Assembly (NCBI GenBank): GCA_024711185.1
Contig: JANJTI010000087.1
Span: forward strand, 1 to 19,804
Reading direction: 5' to 3'
Length of the DNA stretch: 19,804 bases
DNA from: Brevundimonas sp.
GTDB lineage: Bacteria; Pseudomonadota; Alphaproteobacteria; Caulobacterales; Caulobacteraceae
Shown here: positions 1-18,426 of the stretch, one piece after another
Layout: each line of letters opens with the position of its first letter
How positions within the stretch are numbered: the first letter of the stretch is position 1
Program-made: the position numbers and the translations under genes
Notes under the pieces: generated by a model
Seen by the model: the letters and a program-made list of their open reading frames with translations, nothing else
What the model was told of the DNA's origin: nothing
Database searches by the model: none

Positions 1-1
1 C

Positions 2-1270
2 GCCGCGGCCCGGCCGGACGGCGACCGTCCCGGCTGGCGCCTGCAGCTCTGGCGGCGCGAGAGCGACCTCGAGAACACCTTCGTTGCCCTCGCCGACGAC
101 CGCTCCGCCGCCACGCCCGCCAACCACCAGTTCGAGACCCCCGCCGTCGGCTGGGGCGCCAATGCGGCCCTGCGCCGGGTCATCGTCAGCGGCATCGCCC
201 GCGTCGAGTGGGAGCTTGGCGCCGACGCCCGCGTGTTCGAGGGCGAGACCCGCGAGCGTTTCCGCAACCTCGGCGCCGGCTTCACCCGCGGCCGCGTCGC
301 GGGCGGCGAAACGTCCGTCGCCGGCCTCTACGCCGAGGGCTCCTGGACGCATGGGCCGTGGCTCGTCGCCGGGGGCCTGCGCGCAGACCGGTGGGAGAAC
401 CGTGGCGGGATTCGTCGCGAGTTCGACCTCGCCAACGGCAACGCAACCCTCGACGAGACCGACCCCGACCGCTCCGGCGAGGTGATCAGCGCCCGCCTCG
501 CCGCCCGCCGCGACCTCGGCGCCGGCCACGCGCTGCGCGTCGCCGCCTACTCCGGCTTCCGGCCCGCCACCCTCAATGAGCTGCACCGCCCCTTTCGTGT
601 CGGCAACGACATTACCGAGGCCAACGCCGGCCTGGAGCCGGAACGGCTCCGCGGGATCGAGGCCGGCTGGAGCTGGAGCGGAGACCGCGCCTCCGTGGCC
701 GCCACCGTGTTCCGCAACGAGATCGCCGACCCCATCGTCAACGTCACTCTCGCCGAAGGTCCCGGAAACTTCCCGCGCGCCGGCTTCGTCCCCGCCGGCG
801 GCGTGCTGCGTCAGCGGCGAAACGCAGGAACGATCCAGGCGACCGGCGTGGAGGTCGACGGCCGACTGGACCTTACGGACGACCTGTCGTTGCGTGCCGC
901 CGCCGCCTTCACCGACGCCGAGGTGGACGGCGGCGCCGCCGCCCCGCAGCTGACCGGCCTGCGTCCGGCCCAGGCGCCGCGCTGGAGCGCCGTGGCGGGG
1001 CTCGACTGGCGCGCGACCGACCGCCTCGCCCTGGCCGCCGACCTGCGCTGGGAGAGCGATCGTTACGAGGACGACCTCAACAGCCGCGTGCTGGAAGGCG
1101 CCGTCACCGCAGCCGTGCGCGCGGACTGGAAGGTGCGCGCGGGCGTCGACCTCTATCTCGCCGCCGACAATCTGTTCGACGAGGCGGTGGAGGTGGCCGA
1201 AACGGGGACGGGCGTGCCCGGATACGGCCCGCCGCGGACATTGAGGCTGGGCCTGCGCCTCTCACGCTGA
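2..1270 (+). CDS. TonB-dependent receptor, C-terminal part (5' truncated by window)
   Basis: The frame is open from the first bases of the window, so only the last ~422 residues of an outer-membrane beta-barrel are visible. The pattern is alternating amphipathic strands with aromatic and Arg/Glu-rich turns. It includes a TonB-receptor barrel signature, Y-S-G-F-R-P-A-T-L-N-E-L, followed by a long loop and N-A-G-L-E-P-E. That N-L-x-P-E block is characteristic of TonB-dependent receptor barrels. The plug domain and signal peptide lie outside the window. The protein ends L-R-L-G-L-R-L-S-R rather than with the usual C-terminal aromatic. It should import a TonB-energised ligand, for example a ferric chelate or cobalamin-like compound; the ligand cannot be read from the sequence. 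The following PepSY/DUF2271/DUF4198/ApbE/flavoprotein genes suggest an iron chelate that is reduced in the periplasm. Family assignment is firm; substrate is inference. Confidence 0.85.
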   Translation, partial: AAARPDGDRPGWRLQLWRRESDLENTFVALADDRSAATPANHQFETPAVGWGANAALRRVIVSGIARVEWELGADARVFEGETRERFRNLGAGFTRGRVAGGETSVAGLYAEGSWTHGPWLVAGGLRADRWENRGGIRREFDLANGNATLDETDPDRSGEVISARLAARRDLGAGHALRVAAYSGFRPATLNELHRPFRVGNDITEANAGLEPERLRGIEAGWSWSGDRASVAATVFRNEIADPIVNVTLAEGPGNFPRAGFVPAGGVLRQRRNAGTIQATGVEVDGRLDLTDDLSLRAAAAFTDAEVDGGAAAPQLTGLRPAQAPRWSAVAGLDWRATDRLALAADLRWESDRYEDDLNSRVLEGAVTAAVRADWKVRAGVDLYLAADNLFDEAVEVAETGTGVPGYGPPRTLRLGLRLSR

Positions 1271-1286
1271 CTGCGCCAATCCAGCT

Positions 1287-1305
1287 ATTGCAAATCGTTC
1301 GCAGG
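1287..1305 (+). promoter_or_regulatory. candidate Fur-type operator before the reductase operon
   Basis: The 19-mer ATTGCAAATCGTTCGCAGG matches the variant Fur-box form AATGCGAATCATTCGCATT at 14 of 19 positions by my own alignment. It is partly palindromic (TGCAA-N5-TCGCA). It sits in the only gap between the receptor gene and the PepSY gene, 17 nt before the GTG start. The core resembles the palindrome at 8755-8773 before the second receptor. No clear -35/-10 pair was recognised here, so it could be a chance match. Confidence 0.4.
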
Positions 1306-1322
1306 TTCGGCACAAGCCGGAC

Positions 1323-1976
1323 GTGACCGACACCGCCGCCGCCAGTTCAAGACCCAGCCCCGCCCTGAACGCCCGCCGGTCGTTCTGGCTCAAGCAACTG
1401 CATCAGTGGCACTGGATCTCGGCCGCCGTCAGCCTGGCCGGCCTGCTGCTGTTCGCGGTCACGGGAATCACCCTCAACCACGCCGCCCAGATTCCCGCCG
1501 AGCCTGTCGTGGTCGAGACCGCCGCCCGGTTGCCGGCGCCCCTTGTCGAACGCCTCGCGGCCTTCCCCGAAACCACGACCGACCCCGTCCCCGACGCCGT
1601 CGCCCGCTGGGCCGCCGACGCCCTGGACGCCCGGATCGCCGGGCGCCCCACCGAAACCACCGCCCACGAGATCTACGTCGCCCTGCCCGAGCCCGGCGGC
1701 GACGGCTGGCTGACCCTCGACCGCGCCACCGGCGAGGCGGTGCGCGAGCGCACCACGCGCGGCTGGATCGCCTGGGCCAACGACCTGCACAAGGGCCGCA
1801 ACACCGGCCCGGTCTGGTACTGGTTCATCGACATCTTCGCCATCGCCTGCGTGGTCTTCGCCGTCACCGGCTTCGCCCTGACCTGGATGCACGCCCGCCA
1901 GCGCCCGTCGACCTGGCCCCTGCTCGGGCTCGGCGTCCTGATCCCCGTCGTCATCGCCCTGCTGTTCATCCACTGA
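1323..1976 (+). CDS. PepSY-associated transmembrane helix protein
   Basis: A 217-residue inner-membrane protein starting at GTG 1323, the only sensible start after the receptor stop. Predicted transmembrane helices lie at about residues 31-53, 165-189 and 198-216, with a periplasmic segment of roughly 110 residues between helices 1 and 2. This layout is typical of short PepSY-associated TM proteins found with siderophore receptors (PiuB-like family). Histidines cluster at the membrane edges: H27, H30 and H53 around helix 1, and H156 and H190 around helix 2. They could ligate heme; that is inference from position only. In this operon it probably carries electrons across the inner membrane between the cytosolic flavoprotein encoded four genes later and periplasmic acceptors. 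The DUF2271 gene follows after 8 nt, so translation is probably coupled. No truncation is visible. Confidence 0.82.
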   Translation: MTDTAAASSRPSPALNARRSFWLKQLHQWHWISAAVSLAGLLLFAVTGITLNHAAQIPAEPVVVETAARLPAPLVERLAAFPETTTDPVPDAVARWAADALDARIAGRPTETTAHEIYVALPEPGGDGWLTLDRATGEAVRERTTRGWIAWANDLHKGRNTGPVWYWFIDIFAIACVVFAVTGFALTWMHARQRPSTWPLLGLGVLIPVVIALLFIH

Positions 1977-1984
1977 GGTCGCTC

Positions 1985-2497
1985 ATGCGCCAGCTCCCCA
2001 TCGCCCTCGCCTCCCTCGCCGCCGGCGCGGTCGCCACGCCCGCGCTGGCCGCCGACCTGAGCGTCTCGGTGACCATCCCCCGGCTCAACGTCGCCGCCTA
2101 CCATCGGCCCTATGTCGCCGTCTGGGTCGAGCGCCCCGACAACACCGCCGTGCGCACCCTCGCGGTCTGGTATCAGCAGACCGCCAACCGCGAGGGCGAC
2201 GGCAAGGACTGGCTGAAGGACATGCGCACCTGGTGGCGACGCGGCGGCCGGTCGATGACCCTGCCGGCCGACGGCGTCTCCAGCGCCACCAAGGCCCCGG
2301 GGACCCACACCGTCGCCGTGCCCGGCGCCCGCCTGTCGAACCTGCCCGCCGGCGAGTACGTCATGGTCGTCGAGGCGGCCCGCGAACTGGGCGGCCGCGA
2401 GGTCGTGCGCGTGCCCTTCCGCTGGGGCGCGGCGAACACCGCCCGCGCCGCCGGCTCCACCGAACTCGGCGCCGTCGCCGTCGCCGTCACCCGCTAG
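1985..2497 (+). CDS. DUF2271 periplasmic protein, probable FMN-carrying subunit
   Basis: A 170-residue protein with a Sec signal peptide ending at about A22-A23 (L-A-A-D). The start is ATG 1985; a GAGG stretch overlapping the previous gene's stop can serve as ribosome binding site. The body has the DUF2271 hallmarks: a V-A-V-W-V-E strand, a K-D-W-L-K-D-M-R-T-W-W-R-R-G-G-R-S segment and an A-P-G-T-H-T turn. Residues 96-102 read D-G-V-S-S-A-T, matching the ApbE flavinylation consensus D-x-x-[ST]-G-A-[TS] except Ser for Gly. In NqrC-type proteins FMN is esterified to the last Thr/Ser, which would be T102 here. An apbE gene lies two genes downstream. I infer a periplasmic flavoprotein receiving electrons from the PepSY protein. 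Domain family is well supported; the cofactor is inference. Confidence 0.85.
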   Translation: MRQLPIALASLAAGAVATPALAADLSVSVTIPRLNVAAYHRPYVAVWVERPDNTAVRTLAVWYQQTANREGDGKDWLKDMRTWWRRGGRSMTLPADGVSSATKAPGTHTVAVPGARLSNLPAGEYVMVVEAARELGGREVVRVPFRWGAANTARAAGSTELGAVAVAVTR

Positions 2498-2509
2498 AGG
2501 AAGTCCGCC

Positions 2510-3325
2510 ATGAAGAAATCTCTCGCCCGCCTCGCCGCTCCGATCCTCGGCGTCCTGGCCGCCCTCGCCGCGCCGGTGACGGCCCAGGCCCACCGCGCCT
2601 GGCTGGCCCCGACCTCCACCGTGCTCTCGGGCGACAGCGCCTGGGTCGGCTTCGACGCCGGCATGTCCAACGGGGTCTTCATTCCCGACCACGCCGCGAT
2701 GAACCTGGCAGGTCTGGTGATCACCGCCCCCGACGGCTCGACCGTCCAGCCCGAGAACCTGCACCGCGCCCGCTACCGCTCCACCTTCGACCTGCACCTG
2801 ACGCAGCCGGGCACGTACAAGGTCTCCAACGTCACCGGCGGGATCATGGCCAGCTACCGCGAGAACGACGAGGAGAAGCGCTGGCGCGGTCAGGCGGCCG
2901 AGTTCCCGGGCGCCCTGCCCGCGGGCGCGACGGACGTCGTCGCCACCCGAACCTCGAACCGCATCGAGACCTTCGTCACCCTCGGCGCCCCGACCGACGG
3001 CGTCTTCGCTGACCCGGCAGAGGGCCTGGCGATGATCCCGGTCACCCACCCGAACGACCTGGTCGCCGGCGAGCCCGCCACCTTCCGCCTGTCCAACGAC
3101 GGGATCGCCGCCGCCGGCGTCGAGGTGACCATCGCGCGCGGCGGCACGCGGTACCGCGACGCGCCGGGGGAGATGACCGTCACGACCGGGGCCGACGGCT
3201 CGTTCACCGTCACCTGGCCCGAGGCCGGCATGTACTGGCTGAACGCCGCCGTCCGCACCCCCGCGCGCGGCGACGCGATGGCCGCCAACGCCCAGTATGT
3301 GGCGGTCCTGGAAGTCCTGCCCTGA
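2510..3325 (+). CDS. DUF4198 domain-containing periplasmic protein
   Basis: A 271-residue secreted protein starting at ATG 2510, preceded by a strong AGAGGAAG ribosome binding site. The signal peptide (K2-K3, hydrophobic core to residue 21) ends in V-T-A-Q-A, predicting cleavage after A27 so that the mature protein begins H28-R-A-W-L-A-P. The remainder is beta-rich with a C-terminal carboxypeptidase-regulatory/Ig-like half (about residues 185-271, containing T-G-A-D-G-S-F-T-V-T-W and G-M-Y-W-L-N). This is the DUF4198 layout, a family that includes nickel- or cobalt-uptake accessory proteins (NikK/NikM-like) and companions of siderophore receptors. A free N-terminal histidine could bind a metal. 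Its role here is unknown; the neighbours suggest periplasmic handling of an imported metal chelate. The product is intact and the apbE reading frame follows at once. Confidence 0.83.
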   Translation: MKKSLARLAAPILGVLAALAAPVTAQAHRAWLAPTSTVLSGDSAWVGFDAGMSNGVFIPDHAAMNLAGLVITAPDGSTVQPENLHRARYRSTFDLHLTQPGTYKVSNVTGGIMASYRENDEEKRWRGQAAEFPGALPAGATDVVATRTSNRIETFVTLGAPTDGVFADPAEGLAMIPVTHPNDLVAGEPATFRLSNDGIAAAGVEVTIARGGTRYRDAPGEMTVTTGADGSFTVTWPEAGMYWLNAAVRTPARGDAMAANAQYVAVLEVLP

Positions 3326-3420
3326 CGTCCGCCGACAACAACCGGGTCCTGGTTCCGACGCACGGGCGGCCGCCGACGCGCGCGCCCGGCGACACGGTCG
3401 TCGACCTGTCCGGCCAGACC

Positions 3421-4344
3421 ATGGGCACCACCTGGTCGATCCGGCTCGTCCCGCCGCCGGGGCTGCCGGCCGGCGCCGCGCGAGAGGCGGTCGAGACCGA
3501 ACTGGCCGACGTCGTCGCCCGGTTCAGCCATTGGGATCCGCGCGCCGAGCTGGCCCGCTTCAACGGCGCGCCGCCCGGCTTCTACGCCGTCTCGGAACCG
3601 TTCTGGTCCCTGCTCGACGCCGCACTGGACATCGCCGACGACACCGACGGCGCCGTGGATCCCACGCTGGGCGCACTGGTCGACCTGTGGGGCTTCGGTC
3701 CCGCCGGGCCTCGTCCCGCCGGCGACCTGCCGACCGACGAGGAGATCGGGGCTGCCCTCGCCGTCTCCGGCTGGAAGGGGCTCCGCCTCAACCGTCCGAT
3801 GCGCGCGGTGCAACAGGTCGGCGGCCTGAAGCTGGACCTCTCGGGCATTGCCAAGGGCCACGCCGTCGACCGCGTGTCGGACCGACTGACCGAACTGGGC
3901 GCTTCGCACCATCTCGTCGAGATCGGCGGCGAACTGCGCGGCCGCGGCGTGAAGCCCGACGGCCAGCCGTGGTGGGTCGAACTGCAGCAGGCCCCCGGCG
4001 CACCTGCCCCGCGCACCCTTGTCGCCCTGTTCGATCTCGCCGTCGCCACGTCCGGCGACTGGATCCGCGGCTTCGACCACGGCGGGCGCCGCTATGGCCA
4101 CACTCTCGACGGCCGCACCGGCCGGCCGGTCGACAACGGGGTCGCCTCGGTGACGGTGCTGGCGGAGACGGCCCTGCGGGCAGACGCCATGGCCACGGCC
4201 CTGACCGTGATGGGTCCTGTCGAGGGTCCCGCCTTCGCCGAGGCCCTGAACATCGCAGCCGCCTTCGTGGTGCGCGGCGACGAGGGACTGACCGAGACGC
4301 TCACCCCCGCCTTCGCGGCCATGCTGAACGACGCCGCCGCGTGA
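3421..4344 (+). CDS. apbE: FAD:protein FMN transferase (ApbE family)
   Basis: ApbE transfers FMN from FAD to a Thr/Ser of exported target proteins in a Mg2+-dependent reaction. The conserved blocks are present in order: T-M-G-T-T-W at the very start, L-D-L-S-G-I-A-K-G-H-A-V-D, E-I-G-G-E-L, A-T-S-G-D, H-T-L-D-G-R-T-G-R-P-V, and A-D-A-M-A-T-A-L-T-V-M-G. ATG 3421 is the first ordinary start codon, but it lies inside the conserved T-M-G-T motif and has no Shine-Dalgarno sequence. The frame is open further upstream. A CTG at 3322, 7 nt after GGAAG and overlapping the DUF4198 stop, would add 33 residues and restore the first strand, so the true protein is probably longer. No obvious signal peptide or lipobox is seen in either version. 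Its likely substrate is the DUF2271 protein. The next gene overlaps its stop codon. Confidence 0.9.
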   Translation: MGTTWSIRLVPPPGLPAGAAREAVETELADVVARFSHWDPRAELARFNGAPPGFYAVSEPFWSLLDAALDIADDTDGAVDPTLGALVDLWGFGPAGPRPAGDLPTDEEIGAALAVSGWKGLRLNRPMRAVQQVGGLKLDLSGIAKGHAVDRVSDRLTELGASHHLVEIGGELRGRGVKPDGQPWWVELQQAPGAPAPRTLVALFDLAVATSGDWIRGFDHGGRRYGHTLDGRTGRPVDNGVASVTVLAETALRADAMATALTVMGPVEGPAFAEALNIAAAFVVRGDEGLTETLTPAFAAMLNDAAA

Positions 4345-5708
4345 CCTCCGATCCGGTCCGCTGGCTGTGGGCGGCCGCCGCGGTCGCCCTGTGGCTGCTG
4401 TCGATCGCCGCCGTCGCCGCCCTGCGCGTGCGCGCCCGCCGGCGCACCGCCGCCCGGGCCGGGGCGCTCTCCGCCGAGGCGGAGGGCGAGGGCGTGCTGG
4501 TCGCCTTCGCCAGCCAGACCGGCCTCGCCGAACAGCTGGCCTGGCGGACCGCCGAGGCGCTGGCCGGCGCCGGCGCGCCCGCGCGCGTCGTCGGGCTCGG
4601 CGACCTCGACCCGACCACCCTGCGATGCGCCGGCCGGGTGCTGATCGTCGCCTCCACCACCGGCGAGGGGGACGCCCCCGACAGCCCGTCCCGCTTCGTG
4701 CGTCGGCACATGGCCGCGCCCGCGGAGCTCGCCGGCCTGCGCTACGCCGTGCTGGCGCTGGGCGACCGATCCTACGCGAAATTCTGCGGCTTCGGCCGGG
4801 CGCTGGACGGCTGGCTGCGCCGCTCGGGGGCCGAGCCCCTGTTCGACCGCGTCGAGGTCGACGACGGCGACGCCGGCGCCCTGCGGCACTGGCGACACCA
4901 GCTCGCCGCGGCGACCGGCGCCCCGGTGGCCGCCGACTGGACGCCGCCCGCCTACGACCGCTGGCGGCTGGTCGAGCGCGCGCACCTCAATCCGGGCGGC
5001 CCCGGGGGCGAAGCGTGGCGGCTGGCCTTCGAGCCGGTGGGACACAGGCCCGACTGGCAGGCGGGCGACATCGCCGAGGTCGGCCTGCCGGCGGTGGAGG
5101 GCGCGCCCCCGGCCAGCCGCGAATATTCCGTCGCCTCGGTCGCCGCCGATGGCCGGGTCGAGTTGATCGTCCGCCGGGTGGTCCGCGACGACGGCTCTCC
5201 CGGCCTCGCCTCCGGCTGGCTGACGGGTGGATTGCAGCCCGGCGACGAGGTCGACCTGCGCCTGCGCTCGAACCGCAGCTTCCACGGCCCTTCTTCGGAT
5301 GTCCCGCTGGTCCTGATCGGCGCCGGCACCGGCCTCGCCGGCCTGCGCGGCCACCTGCGTGCGCGGCCGGCGGCCGGCCACGGGGGCGCCTGGCTGCTGT
5401 GGGGCGAGCGCAGCCCGGTCCACGACGCATGGCTCGACGACGAACTGCAGGCCGCCCTCGCCGCCGGGCGGCTGACCCGTCTGGACCGCGTCTTCTCGCG
5501 CGCGCCCGGCGGCCGCTACGTGCAGGCGCTGGTGGAGGAACACGCCGACGAGCTGCGCTGCTGGGTCGACCGCGGCGCGACCGTGCTGGTCTGCGGCAGC
5601 CTCGAGGGCATGTCGGCCGGGGTGCACGCGGCGCTCGAGGCGGCGCTGGGGGCCGAGCGGGTGCTGGAGCTGCTCGAGACGGGGCGGTATCGGCGAGACG
5701 TGTACTGA
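4341..5708 (+). CDS. membrane-anchored flavodoxin/FNR-type NADPH reductase (sulfite reductase alpha-like)
   Basis: A 455-residue diflavin reductase starting at GTG 4341, which overlaps the apbE stop (GTGA). One transmembrane helix lies at about residues 8-30, followed by a basic stretch (R-A-R-R-R) that places the rest in the cytosol. The flavodoxin domain (51-195) shows S-Q-T-G-L-A-E, S-T-T-G-E-G-D-A-P-D-S and L-G-D-R-S-Y-A-K-F-C. The FAD domain (about 205-320) has R-E-Y-S (260-263) and G-S-P-G-L-A-S (285-291). The NADPH domain has G-A-G-T-G-L-A-G (328-335) and V-C-G-S-L-E-G-M. It ends with the aromatic Y typical of the family. The order FMN-FAD-NADPH matches cytochrome P450 reductase and CysJ, but the N-terminal anchor and context indicate electron supply to the PepSY membrane protein rather than to a sulfite reductase subunit. 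It converges with the dioxygenase gene across a 3-nt gap. Confidence 0.88.
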   Translation: MTSDPVRWLWAAAAVALWLLSIAAVAALRVRARRRTAARAGALSAEAEGEGVLVAFASQTGLAEQLAWRTAEALAGAGAPARVVGLGDLDPTTLRCAGRVLIVASTTGEGDAPDSPSRFVRRHMAAPAELAGLRYAVLALGDRSYAKFCGFGRALDGWLRRSGAEPLFDRVEVDDGDAGALRHWRHQLAAATGAPVAADWTPPAYDRWRLVERAHLNPGGPGGEAWRLAFEPVGHRPDWQAGDIAEVGLPAVEGAPPASREYSVASVAADGRVELIVRRVVRDDGSPGLASGWLTGGLQPGDEVDLRLRSNRSFHGPSSDVPLVLIGAGTGLAGLRGHLRARPAAGHGGAWLLWGERSPVHDAWLDDELQAALAAGRLTRLDRVFSRAPGGRYVQALVEEHADELRCWVDRGATVLVCGSLEGMSAGVHAALEAALGAERVLELLETGRYRRDVY

Positions 5709-5711
5709 GGC

Positions 5712-6389
5712 TCACACCTCCGACCAACGCCGCAGCAGGTTGTGGTAGACGGCGGTCAGCTCCAGCACCGACGGATCCTTCGGCCCCTTGTCCAGTGTCA
5801 CCCGCTGGATGGCCACGTCGAGGCGGAACAGGGTCTCGCGGTCGGCGTCGTCGCGAACCAGGCTCTGCAGCCAGAAGAAGCTGGCCACCCGCGCCCCGCG
5901 CGTCACCGGCGTCACCCGGTGCAGGCTCTTGGACGGATAGAGCACCAGGTCCCCGGCCGGCAGCTTGACCGTCTGCGGCCCGTACATCTCCTCGATGACC
6001 AGCTCGCCGCCCTCGTAGTCCTCCGGCTCCGACAGGAACAGGGTGCACGAGAGATCGCTGCGGATGCGCGTCGCGCCGCGCTGGCGGATGGCGTTGTCGA
6101 CGTGGACGCCAAAGTGCTCACCGCCCTCGTAGCGGTTGAACAGCGGCGGGAAGATGGTGTGCGGCAGGGCCGCGGAGACGAACATCGGATGGGCGTTCAG
6201 CGCCTGCATCACCAGAGCGCCGACCTCCCTCGCCTCGGGCGAGTCCTCGGGCAGCTGGCGGTTGACCTTGGCCGTCGCCGACTGGTGGCCGGAGGTGACG
6301 TTGCCGTCGACCCAGTCGCCGGCGTCCAGCCGGGCGCGCAGGGTGGCGACCTCGTCCTTCGTGAACACCTCGGGAATGTGCAGCAGCAT
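5712..6389 (-). CDS. Fe(II)/2-oxoglutarate-dependent dioxygenase, PiuC/YbiX (PKHD-type) family
   Basis: A 225-residue cytosolic protein, the normal length for YbiX/PiuC. ATG 6389 is preceded by a strong AAGGAGG five nt upstream. The metal site is the facial triad H96-x-D98 (in G-V-H-V-D) and H157 (in S-L-H-R-V), with R167 as the likely 2-oxoglutarate-binding arginine. [10 protein letters not shown] and the strand [11 protein letters not shown] also fit the family. Genes of this family commonly sit beside catecholate siderophore receptors (fiu-ybiX, piuA-piuC), as here, where the receptor gene lies 84 nt upstream. The in vivo substrate is not established; a role in processing an imported siderophore is often supposed. 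Expression is probably iron-dependent through the receptor promoter, modulated by the intervening hairpin. Confidence 0.93.
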
Positions 6390-6412
6390 GACCGCCTCCT
6401 TGATGCGGTGAC

Positions 6413-6449
6413 GCCCGGGATCCGGCCCTCAGGAAGCCGGATCCCGGGC
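6413..6449 (-). promoter_or_regulatory. 14-bp perfect intercistronic hairpin
   Basis: GCCCGGGATCCGGC (6413-6426) is exactly complementary to 6436-6449, with a 9-nt loop. It lies in the 84-nt gap between the receptor stop and the dioxygenase start. Neither strand has a T-run after it, so it is not a standard intrinsic terminator. A role in mRNA stability, processing or partial attenuation is more likely. Confidence 0.6.
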
Positions 6450-6473
6450 TCTGCCGGTCGTCGGGCCGGGCGA

Positions 6474-8732
6474 TCAGTAGCGCAGGTTGAGGGTCAGGAT
6501 GGCCTGCCGTGCGGGGGCGACGTCGGCATGGTGCACCCCGTTGGTGCGCAGGACGTAGTCCTCGTCGCCCGCGTTCTGGACGTTGAGCTGCAGCGAGGCG
6601 CTGTCGGTCAGATCGTACGAGGCGAACAGGTCGACCCGGGTCCAGGCCGGCGCATAGATGCGGCTGGCCCCGCCGCCGGCCCCGCCCTGGTTGCCCCCGA
6701 AGCTGTCGGAGACGTGGTAGAGACCGCCGCCCAGCGCCATCCGCGGGGCGACGCGATACGTCGTGAACAGGCTGAAGCTGTGCTCCGGCGTATTGGCCAG
6801 CGGATCACCGACGTTGACGTTGTTGTAGGCGCCCGCGACCAGCTCCGAGTCCATCCAGGTGTAGCCGCCGAACACCTGCCAGGCGCGGGTGATGGCGCCG
6901 GAGACGCCAAGCTCGACGCCGCGCACTTCCGCCTCGCCCGCCTGCTCGAACACACCCGGCGCCGTCTGGATCTGGGCGTTCTCGCGCTTCAGCAGAAAGG
7001 CGGCCGCGGACAGCGCCAGCCGGTCGTGGAACAGGTTGGCCTTGGCGCCGATCTCGAAGCTTTCGGTCTCCTCAGGCTCCAGCAGCACGGTCGCGAGATT
7101 GCCCGAGCCCATGCCGCCCGTACCGTTCTGGTCGCCGGCGGAGACGGTCGGCGGAGTCGCGGACGTGGCCCACGACGCATAGACGCTGGAGCTTGCGGTC
7201 GGCTTCCAGACCAGCCCGACCTGGTAGTTGACGAAGTCCCACTCTCCGGCCGAGGGCGTGTAGACCGGGGCCGCCGGCGTTCCCGTAGCGTTGCGCCCGT
7301 CGACCGAGAAGTCGTCGTAGCGGATCCCGAGGTTCAGCAGGAAGCGTTCGCCGAAGGCGACGGAGTCGAGCGCGTAGAGGCCGACGGTGTCGGTGACGCT
7401 GCGGCTGATCACGCCGCGCCGGATCGTTCCCGTCCAGGGGTCCCGCGGGTTCGGGTCGTACAGCCGGGTGCAGTCGAGGCCGGTGAGCGGGGCGGGGCAG
7501 GCGGAGGCGCCGGTCGTGGTCACGATCCATGATGCGTTGCGGTTGCGCTCCCGCGCGAGCTCCAGCCCGACGTCGTAGCTGTGCGTGACGCCGCCGAGCG
7601 CGAGACGGCCCGACAGGTCGGTGACGTTGGCGATCGTCTCTGTCGGGTTCCAGCGCGATTTGATCCCGCGCTTCATCCAGTACTCGCCGCCGATCAGCGC
7701 CACCCCGCCGTTGGCGATGTTGCCGCCGTCGCCCGGGTTGGTGACCATGTAGTCGTTCAGCGTTTCCGACCAGCGGCTGACGTTGCGCAGCACCGCGGCC
7801 TCGCTGAAGCGGTGACGGAAATCGAAGGTCAGGGTGTCGACCGTATTGGTCAGGTAGTCGCGCGCCTCCAGCCCGTAGAAGCTGTCGTAGGGCACGTCGA
7901 GGATGCCGCTGTCGGTGGTGCGCACTCCGATCTTGGTGAACAGCGGGATGCCGTAGTCCGGCATCTGGTCCGAGGTCAGGTGGTAGTAGCTGAAGGTCGC
8001 GGAGGTGGGCGTGCCCAGCCCCGCCGCCAGCGACAGGCCGAGGCCCCATTTGTCGTAGTCGACCGCGTCGCGGCCCGGCACATCGCCCGCCGCGCCCATC
8101 AGGTTGAGCCGCAGCCCGGCCGTCTCGCCGAGGCTCCAGTTCCGGTCGACCGTGGCGCGCCAGTAGCCGTCGGTCCCCACGCCCGCCGCCATGCGGGTGA
8201 AGTCGGTCAGACGCGGCGTCTTGGACGCCAGGTTGATGCTGCCGCCGCCCGAGCCGCGGCCGGAGTAGACCGCGTCAGGCCCCTTCACCACCTCGACCTG
8301 CTCGAGGTTGAACACCTCGCGCTGCTGGCCGCCGGAGTCGCGAATGCCGTCGACGAAGACATTGTTGCCCGACGCCTGGCCGCGGATGAACGGTCGGTCG
8401 GCCAGCGGCTGCCCGCCCTCTCCGGCCCCGAAGGTGATCCCGGGCGAGGTGCGCAGGATGTCCTGCAGGGAGGTGGCGGCGGTCTGCTCGATGATCTGCT
8501 GCGGGATGATGGTCACCGACCGGGGCGTGTCGACCAGCGGCGCGACGAACTCCGGGGATTGCGGCTCCCGCGCCGCCGGCTGCCCGGTCACGCTGACCGT
8601 GCCAAGGTGGGTGGCGTCCTGCGGCTCCGTCGAAGCGAGGGGCTCGTCCGCCAGCACCGGCCCGCCGACCAGCATACCGGCGGCGGTCGAGGCGAACAGG
8701 AGGGCGCGGAGCGCGTCGGCGCGATCGGTCAT
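6474..8732 (-). CDS. TonB-dependent siderophore receptor (catecholate/Fiu-like)
   Basis: A 752-residue outer-membrane receptor. The signal peptide ends V-L-A at residue 28. A TonB-box-like T-V-S-V-T-G (45-50) precedes a plug domain (about 60-175) with D-T-P-R-S-V-T-I-I-P, D-I-L-R-T-S-P-G-I, F-I-R-G-Q, V-F-V-D-G-I-R-D and V-E-V-V-K-G-P-D-A-V-Y-S-G-R-G-S-G-G-G-S-I-N. These blocks are the signature of the TonB siderophore receptor family. The 22-strand barrel follows, ending L-T-L-N-L-R-Y with a terminal aromatic. An extracellular loop has two cysteines (C-P-A-P-L-T-G-L-D-C) that may form a disulfide. ATG 8732 was chosen over an in-frame TTG at 8756 because the TTG lies inside the Fur-like palindrome and would leave almost no leader. 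Pairing with a PiuC/YbiX gene suggests catecholate-type ferric siderophores; the ligand is inferred. Confidence 0.93.
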   Translation of the reverse strand: MTDRADALRALLFASTAAGMLVGGPVLADEPLASTEPQDATHLGTVSVTGQPAAREPQSPEFVAPLVDTPRSVTIIPQQIIEQTAATSLQDILRTSPGITFGAGEGGQPLADRPFIRGQASGNNVFVDGIRDSGGQQREVFNLEQVEVVKGPDAVYSGRGSGGGSINLASKTPRLTDFTRMAAGVGTDGYWRATVDRNWSLGETAGLRLNLMGAAGDVPGRDAVDYDKWGLGLSLAAGLGTPTSATFSYYHLTSDQMPDYGIPLFTKIGVRTTDSGILDVPYDSFYGLEARDYLTNTVDTLTFDFRHRFSEAAVLRNVSRWSETLNDYMVTNPGDGGNIANGGVALIGGEYWMKRGIKSRWNPTETIANVTDLSGRLALGGVTHSYDVGLELARERNRNASWIVTTTGASACPAPLTGLDCTRLYDPNPRDPWTGTIRRGVISRSVTDTVGLYALDSVAFGERFLLNLGIRYDDFSVDGRNATGTPAAPVYTPSAGEWDFVNYQVGLVWKPTASSSVYASWATSATPPTVSAGDQNGTGGMGSGNLATVLLEPEETESFEIGAKANLFHDRLALSAAAFLLKRENAQIQTAPGVFEQAGEAEVRGVELGVSGAITRAWQVFGGYTWMDSELVAGAYNNVNVGDPLANTPEHSFSLFTTYRVAPRMALGGGLYHVSDSFGGNQGGAGGGASRIYAPAWTRVDLFASYDLTDSASLQLNVQNAGDEDYVLRTNGVHHADVAPARQAILTLNLRY

Positions 8733-8754
8733 GGCGAGGGTCCGGTGAAGGTTC

Positions 8755-8773
8755 AATGCGAGCGGTTCGCATT
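8755..8773 (-). promoter_or_regulatory. Fur-box-like 19-bp palindrome overlapping the receptor promoter
   Basis: AATGCGA-GCGGT-TCGCATT has perfect 7-bp arms and the 19-bp size and spacing of a Fur box (variant AATGCGAATCATTCGCATT). On the minus strand it overlaps a candidate -10 hexamer GATAAT (8776-8771), placing the transcript start near 8764, about 30 nt before ATG 8732. This is the usual position for iron-dependent repression. No good -35 was recognised. Confidence 0.65.
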
Positions 8774-8801
8774 ATCACCTCTGCCGGTCGCCGCAATCGA
8801 A

Positions 8802-8820
8802 ATTGCGACACATTCTCACA
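8802..8820 (-). promoter_or_regulatory. second, weaker Fur-like site upstream of the receptor
   Basis: ATTGCGACACATTCTCACA agrees with the Fur-box form AATGAGAATCATTCTCATT at 13 of 19 positions, with a good ATTCTCA half. It lies about 30 bp upstream of the first site, so it could allow cooperative binding. It is less symmetrical than the first site. Confidence 0.35.
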
Positions 8821-8838
8821 AATTCGGCGCCGCCGGCA

Positions 8839-10047
8839 TCAGCCGGCCGCCACCTGCTTCATCGGGACGGCGGTGTCGGCCAGGCGGGCCGGGTCAACAG
8901 GCGTTCCCCGCCCGATCATCTGCCGGCCGCCCATGAACTCCGCCGCCGCGTTCACCGCCTCGACGCAGACGATCCTGTCGCCCTTCAGGTGGAAGACCGC
9001 GAAGGCGCCGCCCGCCGGATCGCCGCGCACCACCTGCCGGTCCGCACCTTCGGGCAGGCCGGCGATCTGCAGCTTGATGTCGTACTGGTCGGACCAGAAC
9101 CACGGCACCTCCGGCGTCGGGCCGGGGCGCCCGACGATGGCCGCCGCCGCCTGCTTGGCCTGTTCGAGCGCGTTCGGCACGCTCTCCAGTCGATGGCGGA
9201 TCCCGCCCAGCGCCGGGATCGGGCGGAAGGTCATGTCGCCGATGGCGTAGATGGCCGGGTCCGAGGTTCGCCCCGTCTCGTCGACCGCCACCCCGTTGTC
9301 GCAGGCCAGTCCCGCCGACCGCGCCAGCGCGTCGCACGCCAGGGCCCCGACCCCGACCAGCACCACCTCGGCCTCAACCAGCCCCCCGTCGGCGAGCCGG
9401 ACGCCGCCATCCTCGAAGCCGGACACCTCGGCGGAGGTCAGGATCTCCACGCCCTCGCGGCGGTGGCGCGCGGTGAAGAAGTCCGACAGCACCGGCGACG
9501 CCACCCGGGCCAGCACCCGGTCCATCCGCTCGATGACCACCGCCTCGGCGCCCAGCGCCCGCGCCGACGCGGCCGCCTCCAGGCCGATATAGCCGCCGCC
9601 CACCACCGCCAGCGTCTTCCCCGGGCCGAGCGCCGCCTTCAGCCGCTGCGCGTCGGCGAGGGTGCGCAGCTCCAGCAGGTCGCCCCGGTCCGCTCCCGGC
9701 AGCGGCAGCTTCCGCGCCGTCGATCCCGTGGCGAGGATCAGGATGTCGTACGACTCGACCGTGCCGTCCGCGAAGGTCGCCGTCCTGGCCGCCGGATCGA
9801 TCGCGGTCGCCGTCACGCCGGTGCGCAGATCGATGTTCTGCTCGGCGTAGAAGCTTTCGGGCCGCAACAGGACGTCCTCGAGCCCTGCCTCGCCCTTGAG
9901 CCAGGCCTTGGACAGCGGCGGCCGCTGGTACGGCGGGGCCGGCTCCTCGCCGGCCAGCACCACCTCCCCCTCGAACCCGTATTGCCTGAGCAGGGCCGCC
10001 GCCGCCCCGCCCGCATGTCCCGCCCCGATGATCAGAACCTTCGTCAT
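8839..10047 (-). CDS. NAD(P)H-dependent FAD oxidoreductase, ferredoxin/rubredoxin reductase type
   Basis: A 402-residue protein with the two-dinucleotide-domain fold of putidaredoxin/rubredoxin reductases. FAD binding: G-A-G-H-A-G-G (8-14), the P-P-Y-Q-R-P-P-L-S-K stretch (38-47), A-T-G at 106-108 and A-I-G-D-M (268-272). NAD(P)H binding: V-V-G-G-G-Y-I-G-L-E (148-157). The C-terminal reductase domain is recognised by V-P-W-F-W-S-D-Q-Y and I-K-L-Q-I-A-G-L (residues 314-331). ATG 10047 was chosen because it places the first strand M-T-K-V-L-I-I-G correctly; an in-frame TTG 36 nt upstream would only add an unconserved leader. There is no redox-active C-x-x-C, so it is not thioredoxin-reductase-like. 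It would pass electrons from NAD(P)H to a [2Fe-2S] ferredoxin or similar partner; none is encoded nearby. It lies 106 nt upstream of the receptor, which has its own promoter signals, so co-regulation is uncertain. Confidence 0.9.
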   Translation of the reverse strand: MTKVLIIGAGHAGGAAAALLRQYGFEGEVVLAGEEPAPPYQRPPLSKAWLKGEAGLEDVLLRPESFYAEQNIDLRTGVTATAIDPAARTATFADGTVESYDILILATGSTARKLPLPGADRGDLLELRTLADAQRLKAALGPGKTLAVVGGGYIGLEAAASARALGAEAVVIERMDRVLARVASPVLSDFFTARHRREGVEILTSAEVSGFEDGGVRLADGGLVEAEVVLVGVGALACDALARSAGLACDNGVAVDETGRTSDPAIYAIGDMTFRPIPALGGIRHRLESVPNALEQAKQAAAAIVGRPGPTPEVPWFWSDQYDIKLQIAGLPEGADRQVVRGDPAGGAFAVFHLKGDRIVCVEAVNAAAEFMGGRQMIGRGTPVDPARLADTAVPMKQVAAG

Positions 10048-10169
10048 GTTCGGGAAGTAGGGCGAACCGCGCCCTTCCGCCAAGGGTCGATGCGCGGAGG
10101 CGAACGGCGTTGCCGGAGTGCCGCCCGCGTGTCATCTTTCTCCACGGGGGCATTCCGGGGGTTCGGATC

Positions 10170-11054
10170 ATGAAAACGGGGTTTGTCGCGGCGCTGGCCG
10201 CGGTGCTGGCGTCGGCCACGACGGCGGCGGCGCAGGATACGTCCGCGCGCGCCACCTACGGGGAGGTGAGGCTGAGGTCCGGCTTCACCCCGGACCCGCA
10301 TTCGGTGCGGATCACGGCCGGCGGCTCGATCGACGCCTCCCGCATCGGCTCGCCCTGCACCGGCACGATCGCCAATGCGCCGGACTACGAGGTGTCCTAC
10401 ACCGCCGGCTCGCTGCCCCTGTACATCTATGCCCAGGCCGACAGCGACACGACCCTGGTCGTCAACGGGCCGGACGGGCAGTGGTACTGCGACGACGACT
10501 CCAACGGCGGCCTCAACCCCCAGGTGACCTTCAACTCGCCCCGGTCCGGGACCTATGACATCTGGGTCGGCAGGTTCGGCGGCGGCACCACCCCGGCGAC
10601 CCTGTACATCTCCGAACTGGCGGACGATGATTCTGACCGGGATTACGACAACTCCGGCATGCCCGACGCCAGCCTGCGCGCCACCTATGGCGAGGTCAGC
10701 CTGCGCAACGGCTTCACCCCCGATCCCCACCGCGTCAGCCTCACCGCCGGCGGCTCGGTCCAGGCGTCGAACGTCTCATCGTCCTGCTCGGGCTCCATCG
10801 CCGTCGCCCCTGACTACCAGGTGACCTACACCGCCGGCTCCCGGCCCCTGGTGTTCCGCTCGCGGTCGTCGACGGACACCACCCTGGTGATCAACGGGCC
10901 GGACGGGCAGTGGTCCTGCAACGACGACGGCTGGAACAACAACAACGCCGAGATCCGCTTCGACAAGCCGATGTCGGGGGTCTACGACGTCTGGGTCGGC
11001 GTCTACGGCGGCGGCACGGCGCGGGCGGACCTGCTCGTCACCGAGATTCCCTGA
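10170..11054 (+). CDS. secreted protein with two tandem PPC-like beta domains
   Basis: A 294-residue protein with a clear signal peptide (M-K-T-G-F-V-A-A-L-A-A-V..., cleaved near A-A-A-Q at residue 21-22). ATG 10170 is preceded by a GGGGG ribosome-binding stretch 8 nt upstream. The mature protein is two copies of one domain (about residues 28-150 and 171-294) at a fixed offset of 143 residues, joined by an acidic linker D-D-D-S-D-R-D-Y-D. Each copy contains A-T-Y-G-E-V, G-F-T-P-D-P-H, a Cys (C63/C206), T-L-V-[VI]-N-G-P-D-G-Q-W, a second Cys followed by an Asp/Asn-rich loop (C107/C250), and a Y-D-[IV]-W-V-G strand. This resembles the bacterial pre-peptidase C-terminal (PPC) fold seen on secreted proteases, but no protease domain is present. 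The conserved Cys pairs may form one disulfide per domain, and the acidic loops may bind calcium. Function unknown. It is transcribed away from the FAD reductase gene. Confidence 0.82.
   Translation: MKTGFVAALAAVLASATTAAAQDTSARATYGEVRLRSGFTPDPHSVRITAGGSIDASRIGSPCTGTIANAPDYEVSYTAGSLPLYIYAQADSDTTLVVNGPDGQWYCDDDSNGGLNPQVTFNSPRSGTYDIWVGRFGGGTTPATLYISELADDDSDRDYDNSGMPDASLRATYGEVSLRNGFTPDPHRVSLTAGGSVQASNVSSSCSGSIAVAPDYQVTYTAGSRPLVFRSRSSTDTTLVINGPDGQWSCNDDGWNNNNAEIRFDKPMSGVYDVWVGVYGGGTARADLLVTEIP
10251..11051 (+). repeat. intragenic tandem duplication of a ~120-residue domain
   Basis: Copy 1 is about 10251-10619 and copy 2 about 10680-11051. The two are colinear at a 429-nt (143-codon) offset, with matching motifs A-T-Y-G-E-V, G-F-T-P-D-P-H, N-G-P-D-G-Q-W and W-V-G and matching cysteines. 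The DNA has diverged enough to show that the duplication is old. Confidence 0.85.
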
Positions 11055-11063
11055 GCCGCGCCA

Positions 11064-11082
11064 CCCCGCGGAACCGGCGGGG
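11064..11082 (+). terminator. possible weak terminator hairpin after the PPC-like gene
   Basis: CCCCGC (11064-11069) pairs with GCGGGG (11077-11082) across a 7-nt loop, 10 nt after the stop codon. There is no T-run, so at best it is a Rho-independent-like or mRNA-protective stem. Confidence 0.25.
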
Positions 11083-11145
11083 ACCCCGCGAATTCCCCTG
11101 AGGACGGCCAGCCCGGGCGGCCCGGCCGTCACATGGTGTTTCAGG

Positions 11146-11185
11146 CGGAGCCGTATCGGTTGGCTCCGCTCCCCGAAGCGGCCAA
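11146..11185 (+). promoter_or_regulatory. two mutually exclusive hairpins in the zwf leader region
   Basis: CGGAGCC (11146-11152) pairs perfectly with GGCTCCG (11162-11168). The second arm also takes part in an alternative stem, TTGG-(CT)-CCGCT (11160-11170) with AGCGG-CCAA (11177-11185). Only one can form at a time. They lie 43-82 nt before the zwf start, with no T-run. The remainder of the 173-nt gap shows no recognised promoter. Confidence 0.35.
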
Positions 11186-11227
11186 AGACCCTTCATCGCG
11201 ACGGGTTTCAGGAGTGAAGGAGCGCGG

Positions 11228-12688
11228 ATGGCGGCCCTTGTGCTGTTCGGCGGCGGCGGCGACCTCGCCATGCGGATGCTGTTGCCCTCGCTGTATTTCC
11301 TCGAGCACGACGGCCTGCTGCCCGACGACCTGAAGATCATCGGCGCCGCCCGTTCCGACGAGAGCCGCGACGAATACCTCGCCAAGGTGCGCGCCGCCGT
11401 CGAGGGCAAGGCCGAGGCCGACGACGCCTGGTCCGATGCAGCGTGGAGCCGCCTCGCCGACCGCCTCGACTATCTCGCGGTCGACGCCACCGATCCCGAC
11501 AGTCTGAAGCCCCTGAGGGCGCGGATCGGGGACGGCCCGACCACCTCCTTCCTCGCCGTCTCGCCCTCCCTCTACGGCCGCATCGTCACCGCCCTGAAGG
11601 CGGCCGGGTTGGCCGGCGAACAGGACCGGGTGGTGCTGGAGAAGCCGGTCGGGCGCGACCTCGGGACCTTCCGCGAGATCGACGACGCGGTGGCCCACGC
11701 CTTCAGCGAGAACCAGGTCTTCCGCATCGACCACTATCTCGGCAAGGAGACGGTCCAGAACCTGATCGCCCTGCGCTTCGGGAACACCGTGTTCGAGCCG
11801 CTGTGGAACAACCTTTCGATCGACCACGTCCAGATCACCGTCGGCGAGACGGTCGGCGTCGGCGACCGCTGGCCCTACTACGACGAGTACGGCGCCCTGC
11901 GCGACATGCTGCAGAACCACATGTTGCAGCTGCTCTGCCTGGTGGCCATGGAGCCCCCCGCCGACCTCGATCCGGACTCGGTGCGCAACGAGAAGGTCAA
12001 GGTGCTGCGCTCGCTACGGCCGATCACGCCCGACGAGGCCGAACGGGTCACCGTGCGCGGCCAGTACGTCGCCGGCGTGGTCGAGGGCGAGGCGGTCCGC
12101 GGCTATGACGAGGAGCGCGGCCAGGACTCCGACACGGAGACCTTCGTCGCCATTCGCGCCGACATCGACAACTGGCGCTGGGCGGGCGTGCCCTTCTTCA
12201 TGCGCACCGGCAAGCGCCTGCCGGAGAAACGCACCGAGATCGTGATCCAGTTCAAGCCGGTCCCGCACTCCATCTTCGACCACGGCGACCGCGGCGAGCT
12301 GGCCGCCAACCGCATGGTCATCGAGCTGCAGCCGGAAGAGGACATCTCCCTTTCGGTGATGAACAAGCGGCCGGGCCTCGAACAGCGCATGCAGTTGCAG
12401 CCGATCCGCATGTCGCTGTCGTGGGGTCAGAACGACCGCGACGCCCGGCCGCCTCGCCGCCGCATCGCCTACGAGCGCCTGCTGCTCGACGCGCTTGGCG
12501 GAGACTCCACCCTGTTCGTCCGTCGTGACGAGGCCGAGCAGGCGTGGAAGTGGGTTGACGAGGTCTCCGACGCCTGGGCGGCAGGCAAGGTCCGCCCGCA
12601 GCCGTACCCCGCCGGAACCTGGGGTCCGGAGGCCGCCGCCCTGCTGCTGGACCGCACCGGCCGCGAGTGGAACACCGGCCATGGCTGA
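11228..12688 (+). CDS. zwf: glucose-6-phosphate 1-dehydrogenase
   Basis: A 486-residue enzyme oxidising glucose 6-phosphate to 6-phosphogluconolactone with NAD(P)+, the entry step of the Entner-Doudoroff and oxidative pentose phosphate routes. ATG 11228 has AAGGAG five nt upstream. The nucleotide-binding loop is L-F-G-G-G-G-D-L-A-M-R-M (6-17), then L-E-K-P-V-G (137-142), the active-site signature R-I-D-H-Y-L-G-K-E (166-174), and D-M-L-Q-N-H-M-L-Q-L-L with the probable catalytic base H231. The C-terminal half has R-T-G-K-R-L and E-I-V-I-Q-F-K. Unusually, the loop reads G-G-G-G-D-L-A-M-R-M where many homologues have G-A-S-G-D-L-A-K-R-K, losing both lysines. The other active-site residues argue for a working enzyme. 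Its stop codon overlaps pgl by 8 nt, starting a tightly coupled operon. Confidence 0.97.
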   Translation: MAALVLFGGGGDLAMRMLLPSLYFLEHDGLLPDDLKIIGAARSDESRDEYLAKVRAAVEGKAEADDAWSDAAWSRLADRLDYLAVDATDPDSLKPLRARIGDGPTTSFLAVSPSLYGRIVTALKAAGLAGEQDRVVLEKPVGRDLGTFREIDDAVAHAFSENQVFRIDHYLGKETVQNLIALRFGNTVFEPLWNNLSIDHVQITVGETVGVGDRWPYYDEYGALRDMLQNHMLQLLCLVAMEPPADLDPDSVRNEKVKVLRSLRPITPDEAERVTVRGQYVAGVVEGEAVRGYDEERGQDSDTETFVAIRADIDNWRWAGVPFFMRTGKRLPEKRTEIVIQFKPVPHSIFDHGDRGELAANRMVIELQPEEDISLSVMNKRPGLEQRMQLQPIRMSLSWGQNDRDARPPRRRIAYERLLLDALGGDSTLFVRRDEAEQAWKWVDEVSDAWAAGKVRPQPYPAGTWGPEAAALLLDRTGREWNTGHG

Positions 12689-13394
12689 GGTCCGCGCCTT
12701 CTCCGACGCCGGCGCCTGGGCCGAGGCCTGCGCCAGCCGACTGGCGGACGCCGTGTCGGCCGCGATCGCCGCCGAAGGCGCCGCCTTCCTCGCCGGGGCC
12801 GGCGGATCGACGCCCGAGCCGGTCTATCGTCGCCTGGCCGCCGCCCCGCTCGACTGGTCCCGCGTGACCGCGTCTCTCGTCGATGAGCGCTACGTCCCGG
12901 AGACGTCGGACAAGTCCAACGCGCGCCTGCTGAAGCAGACCCTGCTGACCGGCCCCGCCGCCGCCGCCCGCTTCGTGCCGCTCTACAGCGAGCAGGTGAC
13001 CGTCGATCGCGCCGGCCTGCTGGCGGCCCACGCGCTGCGGGCCGTCGGGCGGCCCCTGGACGCGGTCCTTCTCGGCATGGGGGAGGATGGCCATATCTGC
13101 TCCATGTTCCCCGACAACCCCGCGCTGAAGCAGCTGCTGGCGCCGAACAATCCGCCCCTCGTTCTCGCCGTGCACAGGAGCCGCTCGACCTCCGCGCCGC
13201 AGGAGGACCGGCTGTCGATGAATCTGCCCTGGCTGGTCCAGGCCCGCCGCGTCGTCCTGGCCCTCACCGGCGCGAGGAAGCGCGAGGTGTTCGAGCGCGA
13301 GGTCGGCGGCGATCCCTCGGTCTCGCCGGTCGCCGCCCTCGTAGCGGCCCGCGGCGGCGACATCGAGGTGCTGTGGACGGAGGCCGCCCGATGA
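12681..13394 (+). CDS. pgl: 6-phosphogluconolactonase
   Basis: A 237-residue cytosolic hydrolase that opens 6-phosphogluconolactone to 6-phosphogluconate. ATG 12681 lies inside the end of zwf (8-nt overlap), giving the M-A-E-V-R-A-F start and normal family length. Hallmarks of the DevB/Pgl family are [10 protein letters not shown] (40-49), L-V-D-E-R-Y-V-P (67-74), S-N-A-R-L-L-K (79-85) and [15 protein letters not shown] (130-144), where H138 belongs to the conserved G-x-D-G-H catalytic motif. It is translationally coupled to zwf on its 5' side and to edd on its 3' side (ATGA overlap). Confidence 0.96.
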
Positions 13395-15283: not shown

Positions 15284-15303
15284 TGCAGAGGGAAACGCAG
15301 TGA
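15283..15303 (+). other. six-codon minicistron bridging edd and glk
   Basis: ATG 15283 overlaps the edd stop (TGATG) and opens a frame encoding M-Q-R-E-T-Q. It ends at a TGA that overlaps the glk GTG start (GTGA). Its own sequence contains the GAGGG that serves as glk ribosome binding site. It may be a coupling device for re-initiating ribosomes, or chance. Confidence 0.3.
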
Positions 15304-16277: not shown

Positions 16278-16303
16278 CGAACTGTCGGCCGCCTCACATT
16301 TTT
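16269..16303 (+). terminator. possible weak terminator after glk
   Basis: GCCGGC (16269-16274) pairs with GTCGGC (16284-16289), including one G-T pair, around the glk stop codon. A TTTTT run follows only after a further 9 nt. This spacing is long for an intrinsic terminator, so the call is tentative. Confidence 0.3.
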
Positions 16304-16315
16304 ATCACGGCGGCG

Positions 16316-16340
16316 TGAACCTTCCGGGAAGCGTGGCGTT
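16316..16340 (+). promoter_or_regulatory. candidate EcfG/SigT general-stress promoter
   Basis: TGAAC (16316-16320), a 16-nt spacer and CGTT (16337-16340) match the alphaproteobacterial EcfG consensus GGAAC-N16/17-CGTT except for the first base. It lies 35 nt before the start of the small lipoprotein gene, the right distance for its promoter. The start site would fall near 16347. Confidence 0.55.
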
Positions 16341-16344
16341 TCAG

Positions 16345-16369
16345 CAGTCCCAATCCATCGGAGGGACTG
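16345..16369 (+). promoter_or_regulatory. inverted repeat covering the lipoprotein ribosome binding site
   Basis: CAGTCCC (16345-16351) pairs perfectly with GGGACTG (16363-16369) across an 11-nt loop. The right arm covers half of the GGAGGG ribosome binding site (16360-16365). If a transcript started upstream of 16345, the stem would hide the site. A start near 16347 would truncate the left arm, so the repeat might instead be a protein-binding site. Confidence 0.35.
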
Positions 16370-16375
16370 TTCCCA

Positions 16376-16639: not shown

Positions 16640-16656
16640 GGACCGTCGTTCGGATC

Positions 16657-16688
16657 AGGCCCCCGTCGCTCGCGGCGGGGGCCTTTTT
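16657..16688 (+). terminator. strong intrinsic terminator
   Basis: AGGCCCCCG (16657-16665) pairs with CGGGGGCCT (16676-16684), with additional inner T-G and C-G pairs and a small loop, followed directly by TTTTT (16684-16688). It ends the lipoprotein transcript 17 nt after its stop codon. It lies between convergent genes, but the T-run serves only the + strand. Confidence 0.9.
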
Positions 16689-16704
16689 CATGCGCGAGGG
16701 CTGC

Positions 16705-18416: not shown

Positions 18417-18426
18417 GTGCGTTTGT

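Follow-up and report, generated by a model that had tools for sequence, protein, structure and literature searches.

A DUF2271 protein in a Brevundimonas PepSY/ApbE operon is a predicted periplasmic flavoprotein with a partner ApbE that appears to lack an export signal

Introduction

The closest described relatives of the locus analyzed here are the PepSY-like clusters reported by Meheust et al. in 2021, who counted 3220 of them (DUF2271 in 2833, DUF4198 in 1500) and inferred a role in iron reduction and assimilation (PMC8238504). The same study showed that the DUF2271 protein of Amantichitinum ursilacus is flavinylated when it is produced with its ApbE in E. coli, that a Thr to Ala change abolishes the modification, and that both proteins were made without signal peptides in this assay (PMC8238504). 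DUF2271 flavinylation and the clustering of PepSY, DUF2271, DUF4198, and ApbE genes are already known from that work; the point taken up here is the cellular site at which the flavin is added. The route by which FAD reaches the periplasm has been called obscure or unknown (PMC12052999, PMC4767422); a transporter route for flavins is reported in Listeria (PMC9973259).

A second close relative is the Caulobacter crescentus operon CC_3059-3063 (CCNA_03155-03159), which is derepressed by iron limitation and by loss of fur and has a promoter bound by Fur (PMC3751524). Its first gene is termed a "transporter" in PMC3751524 and a PepSY-family protein in PMC11870441, and mutants with transposon insertions in CCNA_03155-03159 have reduced fitness in the presence of EDTA (PMC11870441). 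More distant are FoxB, HiuB, and VciB, PepSY membrane proteins with shown or proposed roles in periplasmic ferric iron reduction (PMC13038864, PMC13001220, PMC8238504). These belong to other PepSY subfamilies than the protein described below, FoxB carries two haems, and the main text of neither PMC13038864 nor PMC13001220 contains the terms DUF2271 or ApbE.

Results

Gene content of the Brevundimonas locus

The window, that is, the whole stretch of DNA that was analyzed, comprises bases 1-19804 of a contig of a Brevundimonas-like genome (2.24 Mb, 374 contigs, 78% complete). Pfam matches place genes for PepSY_TM_like_2, DUF2271, DUF4198, ApbE, and a flavodoxin/NAD reductase in that order, with the end of a TonB receptor gene in front, as follows.

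1-1270, plus strand: TonB-dependent receptor, 3' part, cut by the contig start (PF00593, 6.2e-34, on 233-1267)
1289-1303, no strand assigned: Fur-like palindrome TGCAAATCGTTCGCA, 19 bases before the PepSY start
1323-1976, plus strand: PepSY_TM_like_2 membrane protein (PF16357, 3.5e-75)
1985-2497, plus strand: DUF2271 protein P0001, 170 residues (PF10029, 5.3e-46)
1985-2050, plus strand: DUF2271 signal peptide, residues 1-22, Sec type, no twin arginine, read by eye
2270-2290, plus strand: ApbE recognition motif D96-G-V-S-S-A-T102, with T102 (2288-2290) as the predicted FMN-linked residue
2510-3325, plus strand: DUF4198 protein, secreted (PF10670, 1.3e-49)
3322-4344, plus strand: ApbE FAD:protein FMN transferase, no signal peptide (PF02424, 4.4e-76, on 3421-4341)
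4341-5708, plus strand: flavodoxin/NAD(P)H reductase, CysJ-like (PF00258, 3.7e-26; PF00175, 3.3e-6)

The presence of PF16357, PF10029, PF10670, and PF02424 side by side is the gene content of the PepSY-like flavinylation systems of Meheust et al., and the five genes from PepSY to reductase are those of the C. crescentus operon in the same order (PMC3751524). The two operons differ in genus, and no report of flavinylation was found in the portions of PMC3751524 and PMC11870441 that were covered. From the literature, the PepSY_TM_like_2 protein is predicted to be a transmembrane electron conduit. The best NCBIfam relative of the reductase is cysJ, at a score below the cut-off of that family, and its hydrophobic N terminus was read by eye as an anchor; it is a probable membrane-anchored cytosolic electron donor. 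The TonB-dependent receptor is possibly the first gene of the PepSY/DUF2271/ApbE unit. Elsewhere in the window, positions 11228-16277 hold a second, unrelated block of frames with translations that resemble Entner-Doudoroff zwf, pgl, edd, and glk in that order.

The DUF2271 protein carries a conserved candidate flavin acceptor

The match of P0001 to PF10029 covers residues 25-162 and scores 156.2 bits, compared with a curated cut-off of 27.3. An earlier note had proposed, from the DNA alone, that this protein carries a signal peptide, is encoded two genes before apbE, and is the flavinylation target of its own operon through the stretch D-G-V-S-S-A-T at residues 96-102. Translation of 1985-2497 confirms this stretch (D96 is the codon at 2270-2272), the Pfam order confirms the position of the gene, and the N terminus, which consists of MRQ, a hydrophobic core, and ALA/AD, reads by eye as a Sec-type signal peptide. 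The A. ursilacus protein shares with P0001 the domain, the signal peptide, the motif, and the apbE partner; it differs in having the published core [S/T]GA[S/T], which is absent from P0001, where SSAT is found instead. In P0001 the Thr/Ser acceptor with which the motif ends is T102, which lies in a loop preceding a strand in a structural model of the protein (model residue 80).

We aligned 158 DUF2271 open-frame segments from 66 named loci, 89 further stretches, and the window. Because this set is rich in Brevundimonas and contains some places twice, weighted frequencies were calculated as well (151 unique rows, effective number 64.7). Of the 158 rows, 136 had Thr and 20 had Ser in column 102 and 2 had a gap, so that every row with a letter (156/156) kept a possible acceptor (weighted, Thr 0.80 and Ser 0.20). 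Asp occupied column 96 in 142/158 rows (weighted 0.83), and the weighted values for column 99 were Ser 0.50 and Thr 0.43. The conservation of residues 96 and 102, whose loss the earlier note had named as grounds for refutation, also extended to the 21 loci, among those with a genome handle, at which the fetched stretch held no ApbE (Thr/Ser in 21/21, Asp in 20/21).

A relaxed form of the motif, D..[ST][GSA][AP][ST], was found in 126 of the 158 DUF2271 rows and in none of the open reading frames of the cluster partners (0/136 PepSY, 0/130 DUF4198, 0/98 reductase, and 0/114 stand-alone ApbE). Its chance expectation is 0.0055 per 147 residues, as measured on a background of 1,489,157 residues in six-frame open frames of at least 150 residues from the same loci without DUF2271. 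The motif in DUF2271 is not a product of chance. Based on this conservation and on the published flavinylation of a homolog (PMC8238504), P0001 is predicted to be a covalent flavoprotein of the periplasm, and for P0001 itself we infer that FMN is very probably carried at T102. The idea of the earlier note was right, yet it had already been published at the level of the family (Meheust et al., 2021).

Some DUF2271 sequences stand out. The segment at 5001-5399 of locus L065, from a metagenome-assembled genome, lacks the four core residues of the motif together with residues that flank them, which is either a real loss or an assembly error. The cores differ in the fused ApbE-DUF2271 proteins (L161, L163, L165-L176, L185, L221, L223, and L224): of the 17 counted, 10 have [ST]RP[ST], THPT, or AKPT and a single one carries Gly third from the end, which suggests that recognition may be relaxed where enzyme and target form one chain. 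A second DUF2271 type (L186, L187, L225-L230, L233, L234, and L236) has the core [ST]GAS followed by Val and no PepSY neighbor; its ApbE is encoded about 2.1-2.3 kb away and is also without a signal peptide.

The partner ApbE looks active and likely starts at a CTG codon

The window ApbE matches the structure 5mgy at 1.9e-59. In a comparison of 55 sequences, its putative catalytic residues S244 and H260 were nearly invariant and D288 was invariant, and their spacing is that of Ser241, His257, and Asp285 named in a review (PMC12052999). Since the catalytic Ser, His, and Asp are present with matching spacing, the enzyme looks active. Its structural model has a mean pLDDT of 95.5 (71 for the first ten residues), and residues 8-10, in an RVLVP stretch, form a strand.

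This RVLVP stretch is conserved and lies upstream of the first in-frame ATG (3421), which coincides with the start of the domain. At the junction (3310-3345), the DUF4198 stop is followed by no ATG, GTG, or TTG start for ApbE until the ATG at 3421. A CTG codon at 3322 shares bases with the stop of DUF4198 (CTGA), with GGAAG 7 bases ahead of it, and it is likely that ApbE would be translated from this CTG by termination-reinitiation. At 8 of 59 loci examined, only a domain-start ATG was available for ApbE.

The cluster ApbE appears to lack an export signal

Any in-frame ATG, GTG, TTG, or CTG within the 130 residues that precede the ApbE domain was considered a possible start, and any charge-free hydrophobic stretch of 12 residues was scored as a signal; this criterion relies on hydropathy and inspection by eye, not on SignalP, and is permissive. 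The stand-alone cluster ApbE set comprised 114 open reading frames from 112 loci (109 distinct sequences), with 61 of the loci coming from the Brevundimonas-heavy named set. For 107 of the 114, no start codon gave a hydrophobic N terminus; 7 passed the test, and by eye only those of L085 and L088 looked like real signals. In the window ApbE, no signal peptide or lipobox was seen and no hydrophobic segment preceded the domain for any start codon tried (again by hydropathy, not SignalP). By the same test, 132 of 139 non-fused DUF2271 and 128 of 130 DUF4198 frames passed, as did 17 of 19 fused ApbE-DUF2271 proteins, the other two being fragments.

A separate search gave 115 ApbE matches in 80 genomes. 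Among the 30 best of these, all 16 distal ApbEs passed the test, each with a lipobox-like cysteine; the other 14 were the cluster ApbEs again, of which 1 passed. On a quick tree of 136 ApbE rows, the distal forms and the fused forms were each split off by a branch, with 3 changes of signal state, so that the signal-less enzymes were not scattered. An ApbE of Caulobacter vibrioides (P0134, which may not be CC_3062 itself) is of the window type, starting MPRVLVP with no signal. Among the 120 listed relatives of a Caulobacter-like ApbE, 108 had 28 residues before the conserved MGT, and the hydropathy test was passed by 1 (P0206, RVLVP type).

From its sequence, then, the cluster ApbE appears to be without any export signal, and enzyme and target carry contradictory address labels. 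The A. ursilacus ApbE differs in that its signal peptide was removed for expression (PMC8238504); in the window ApbE none is seen. Literature searches and the passages covered of PMC8238504, PMC11334425, PMC12052999, and PMC4767422 showed no discussion of a missing export signal in the cluster ApbE or of flavin attachment before export, and we do not claim that either is unreported.

Because ApbE lacks an export signal and DUF2271 has a Sec signal, cytosolic attachment before export is the likeliest order of events. We propose it tentatively, at somewhat less than an even chance: the flavin would be attached to the precursor before Sec export, and FMN would cross the Sec channel together with the polypeptide. 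This order is suggested by the use of signal-less proteins in the A. ursilacus assay, by the finding that a seven-residue motif is sufficient for ApbE (PMC12052999), and by the failure of a folded engineered target to be flavinylated in vitro (PMC10722498). Purified apo-NqrC was flavinylated in vitro (PMC12052999), so ApbE targets need not in general be unfolded.

It is unlikely that DUF2271 is instead flavinylated at T102 in the periplasm, after export of the signal-less ApbE by a route that sequence does not reveal. Such a route would fit the modification of other exported targets outside the membrane by lipoprotein ApbEs, the periplasmic localization that is essential for a studied ApbE (PMC12052999), and the signals of the L085 and L088 ApbEs and of the fused forms. 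It has to be set against the lack of a hydrophobic N terminus, from any start codon, in 107/114 cluster ApbE frames and against the rarity of a twin-arginine-like pattern, which could carry a partner protein, in DUF2271 (8/158 rows, P0001 not among them). A read-through fusion of ApbE to DUF4198 as the carrier is also unlikely, as the two frames differ and relatives such as L051 have TAA as the stop and a separate ATG of their own further downstream. The signals on L085, L088, and the complete fused forms nevertheless make it very probable that periplasmic attachment to DUF2271 also occurs in those systems.

The acceptor is kept in genomes with no detected ApbE outside the cluster

ApbE was present in all 80 DUF2271 genomes searched (of 83 found) and in 219 of 299 genomes of a phylum sample. 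If the ApbE and DUF2271 draws from the phylum are the same sample, as this calculation assumes, ApbE occurs in 163 of the 243 genomes without an over-cut-off DUF2271 match (219/299 minus 56 DUF2271 genomes). The host genome, at 78% completeness, contains one DUF2271 and one ApbE, both in the same operon, and FMN_bind was undetected in it.

Together with 35 genomes that are at least 98% complete, the host belongs to a group of 36 in which neither an ApbE besides that of the cluster nor FMN_bind was detected. The acceptor Thr/Ser is kept in 36/36, and residue 96 is Asp in 30, Asn in 4, and Ser in 2. Four of the 36 sole ApbEs (L184, L189, L200, and L218) pass the permissive hydropathy test, and we read them as non-signals. 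The retention of the acceptor beside an ApbE without an export signal in all 36 single-ApbE genomes suggests that the flavin may be attached in the cytosol.

These genomes also bear on whether the signal-less ApbE might modify some other, cytosolic protein, while DUF2271 receives its flavin from a different ApbE or stays unmodified. There is a precedent in the cytosolic ApbE of Klebsiella pneumoniae, which like the window ApbE has no signal peptide but acts on soluble cytoplasmic fumarate reductase, not on an exported protein (PMC12052999). We regard this explanation as very improbable for the DUF2271 clusters: the 36 genomes keep the acceptor with no other ApbE or FMN_bind detected (FMN_bind being the only other target searched), and the motif is absent from the PepSY, DUF4198, and reductase frames.

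For clusters without a nearby ApbE, FMN_bind was present in the genome at 20/21 loci, so a periplasmic lipoprotein ApbE may serve there. The complementarity of cluster ApbE and FMN_bind (11/50 versus 19/19, Fisher p about 1e-9) goes back to only 2 independent pairs with support (5 on the best tree); it loses significance once kinship is corrected for, and kinship alone could produce it.

Serine in place of glycine is an ordinary variant of the motif

Column 100 of the alignment contained Gly in 88, Ser in 45, and Arg in 11 of the 158 rows (weighted, Gly 0.59, Ser 0.15, and Arg 0.14), and weighted frequencies in column 101 were Ala 0.63 and Pro 0.34. The strict form D..[ST]GA[ST] occurred in only 57/158 rows, so the strict core does not define the DUF2271 family, and many DUF2271 sites fall outside the published core motif. 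SSAT was found in 119 of the 120 listed closest homologs, with Thr/Ser at 102 always kept. A tree of 148 DUF2271 rows, built with the motif columns removed and leaving many forks unresolved, gave at least 11 changes between Gly and Ser at position 100 in its best form, of which supported branches force only 5 (the Ser group). From the frequency of Ser, its prevalence among the closest homologs, and the repeated changes, we conclude that Gly to Ser is normal variation and not a defect. The earlier note had called it a mild deviation, which holds in that SSAT differs from the published core but not for the family, where Ser is an ordinary variant.

That ApbE does not accept SSAT and P0001 is an unmodified relative is hardly probable at all: Gly does stand in the published consensus, and in another target Gly to Ala cut flavinylation to about half, with minor effects of Asp to Ala (PMC12052999), but the Ser counts, the constant Thr/Ser at 102, and the repeated changes on the best tree, even if fewer are forced by supported branches, argue against it.

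The operon lies in an iron-related context

The palindrome TGCAAATCGTTCGCA agrees with a Fur pattern at 12 of 14 letters; the pattern was chosen after the palindrome had been seen, so only the conservation of the box counts. A Fur-like box with at least 11 of 14 letters was present in 40 of 67 upstream regions, the window included, compared with 0.15% of shuffled regions. Downstream of the operon lie genes for an Fe2+-dependent dioxygenase of the PiuC/YbiX type and a Fiu-like siderophore receptor (6474-8756). The Fur-like box and these downstream genes would fit a role in iron uptake. A second, imperfect copy of the palindrome (2-3 mismatches) occurs at 8757-8771, before the Fiu-like receptor; at 2-3 mismatches, about one Fur-like match per window is expected by chance.

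Discussion

Taken as a whole, the locus points with good probability to P0001 as a flavinylated electron carrier. We propose that P0001 is a covalent FMN protein in an iron-responsive electron export chain of the PepSY-like type. The ApbE of the same operon would use FAD to place FMN, through a phosphoester, on T102 of the DUF2271 precursor inside the cytosol, the compartment in which FAD is made and available, and the modified precursor would then be exported by Sec. The CysJ-like reductase, with NAD(P)H, FAD, and FMN, would pass electrons through the PepSY membrane protein to mature periplasmic P0001, which could in turn donate them to ferric iron or to a ferric chelate that enters through TonB receptors. 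The direction of electron flow and the electron acceptor in this scheme are inferred.

These findings assign the Brevundimonas operon to an already described class of electron chains that have been linked to iron reduction. If flavin attachment does precede export, a widespread ApbE subfamily would act in the cytosol on a protein destined for Sec, and the FAD supply problem of a periplasmic flavin transferase would be removed for the DUF2271/ApbE system. In many proteobacteria, Caulobacter and Brevundimonas among them, Sec would then routinely export a covalently flavinylated protein. If ApbE acts before export, the flavin loading of periplasmic proteins would not always depend on periplasmic FAD.
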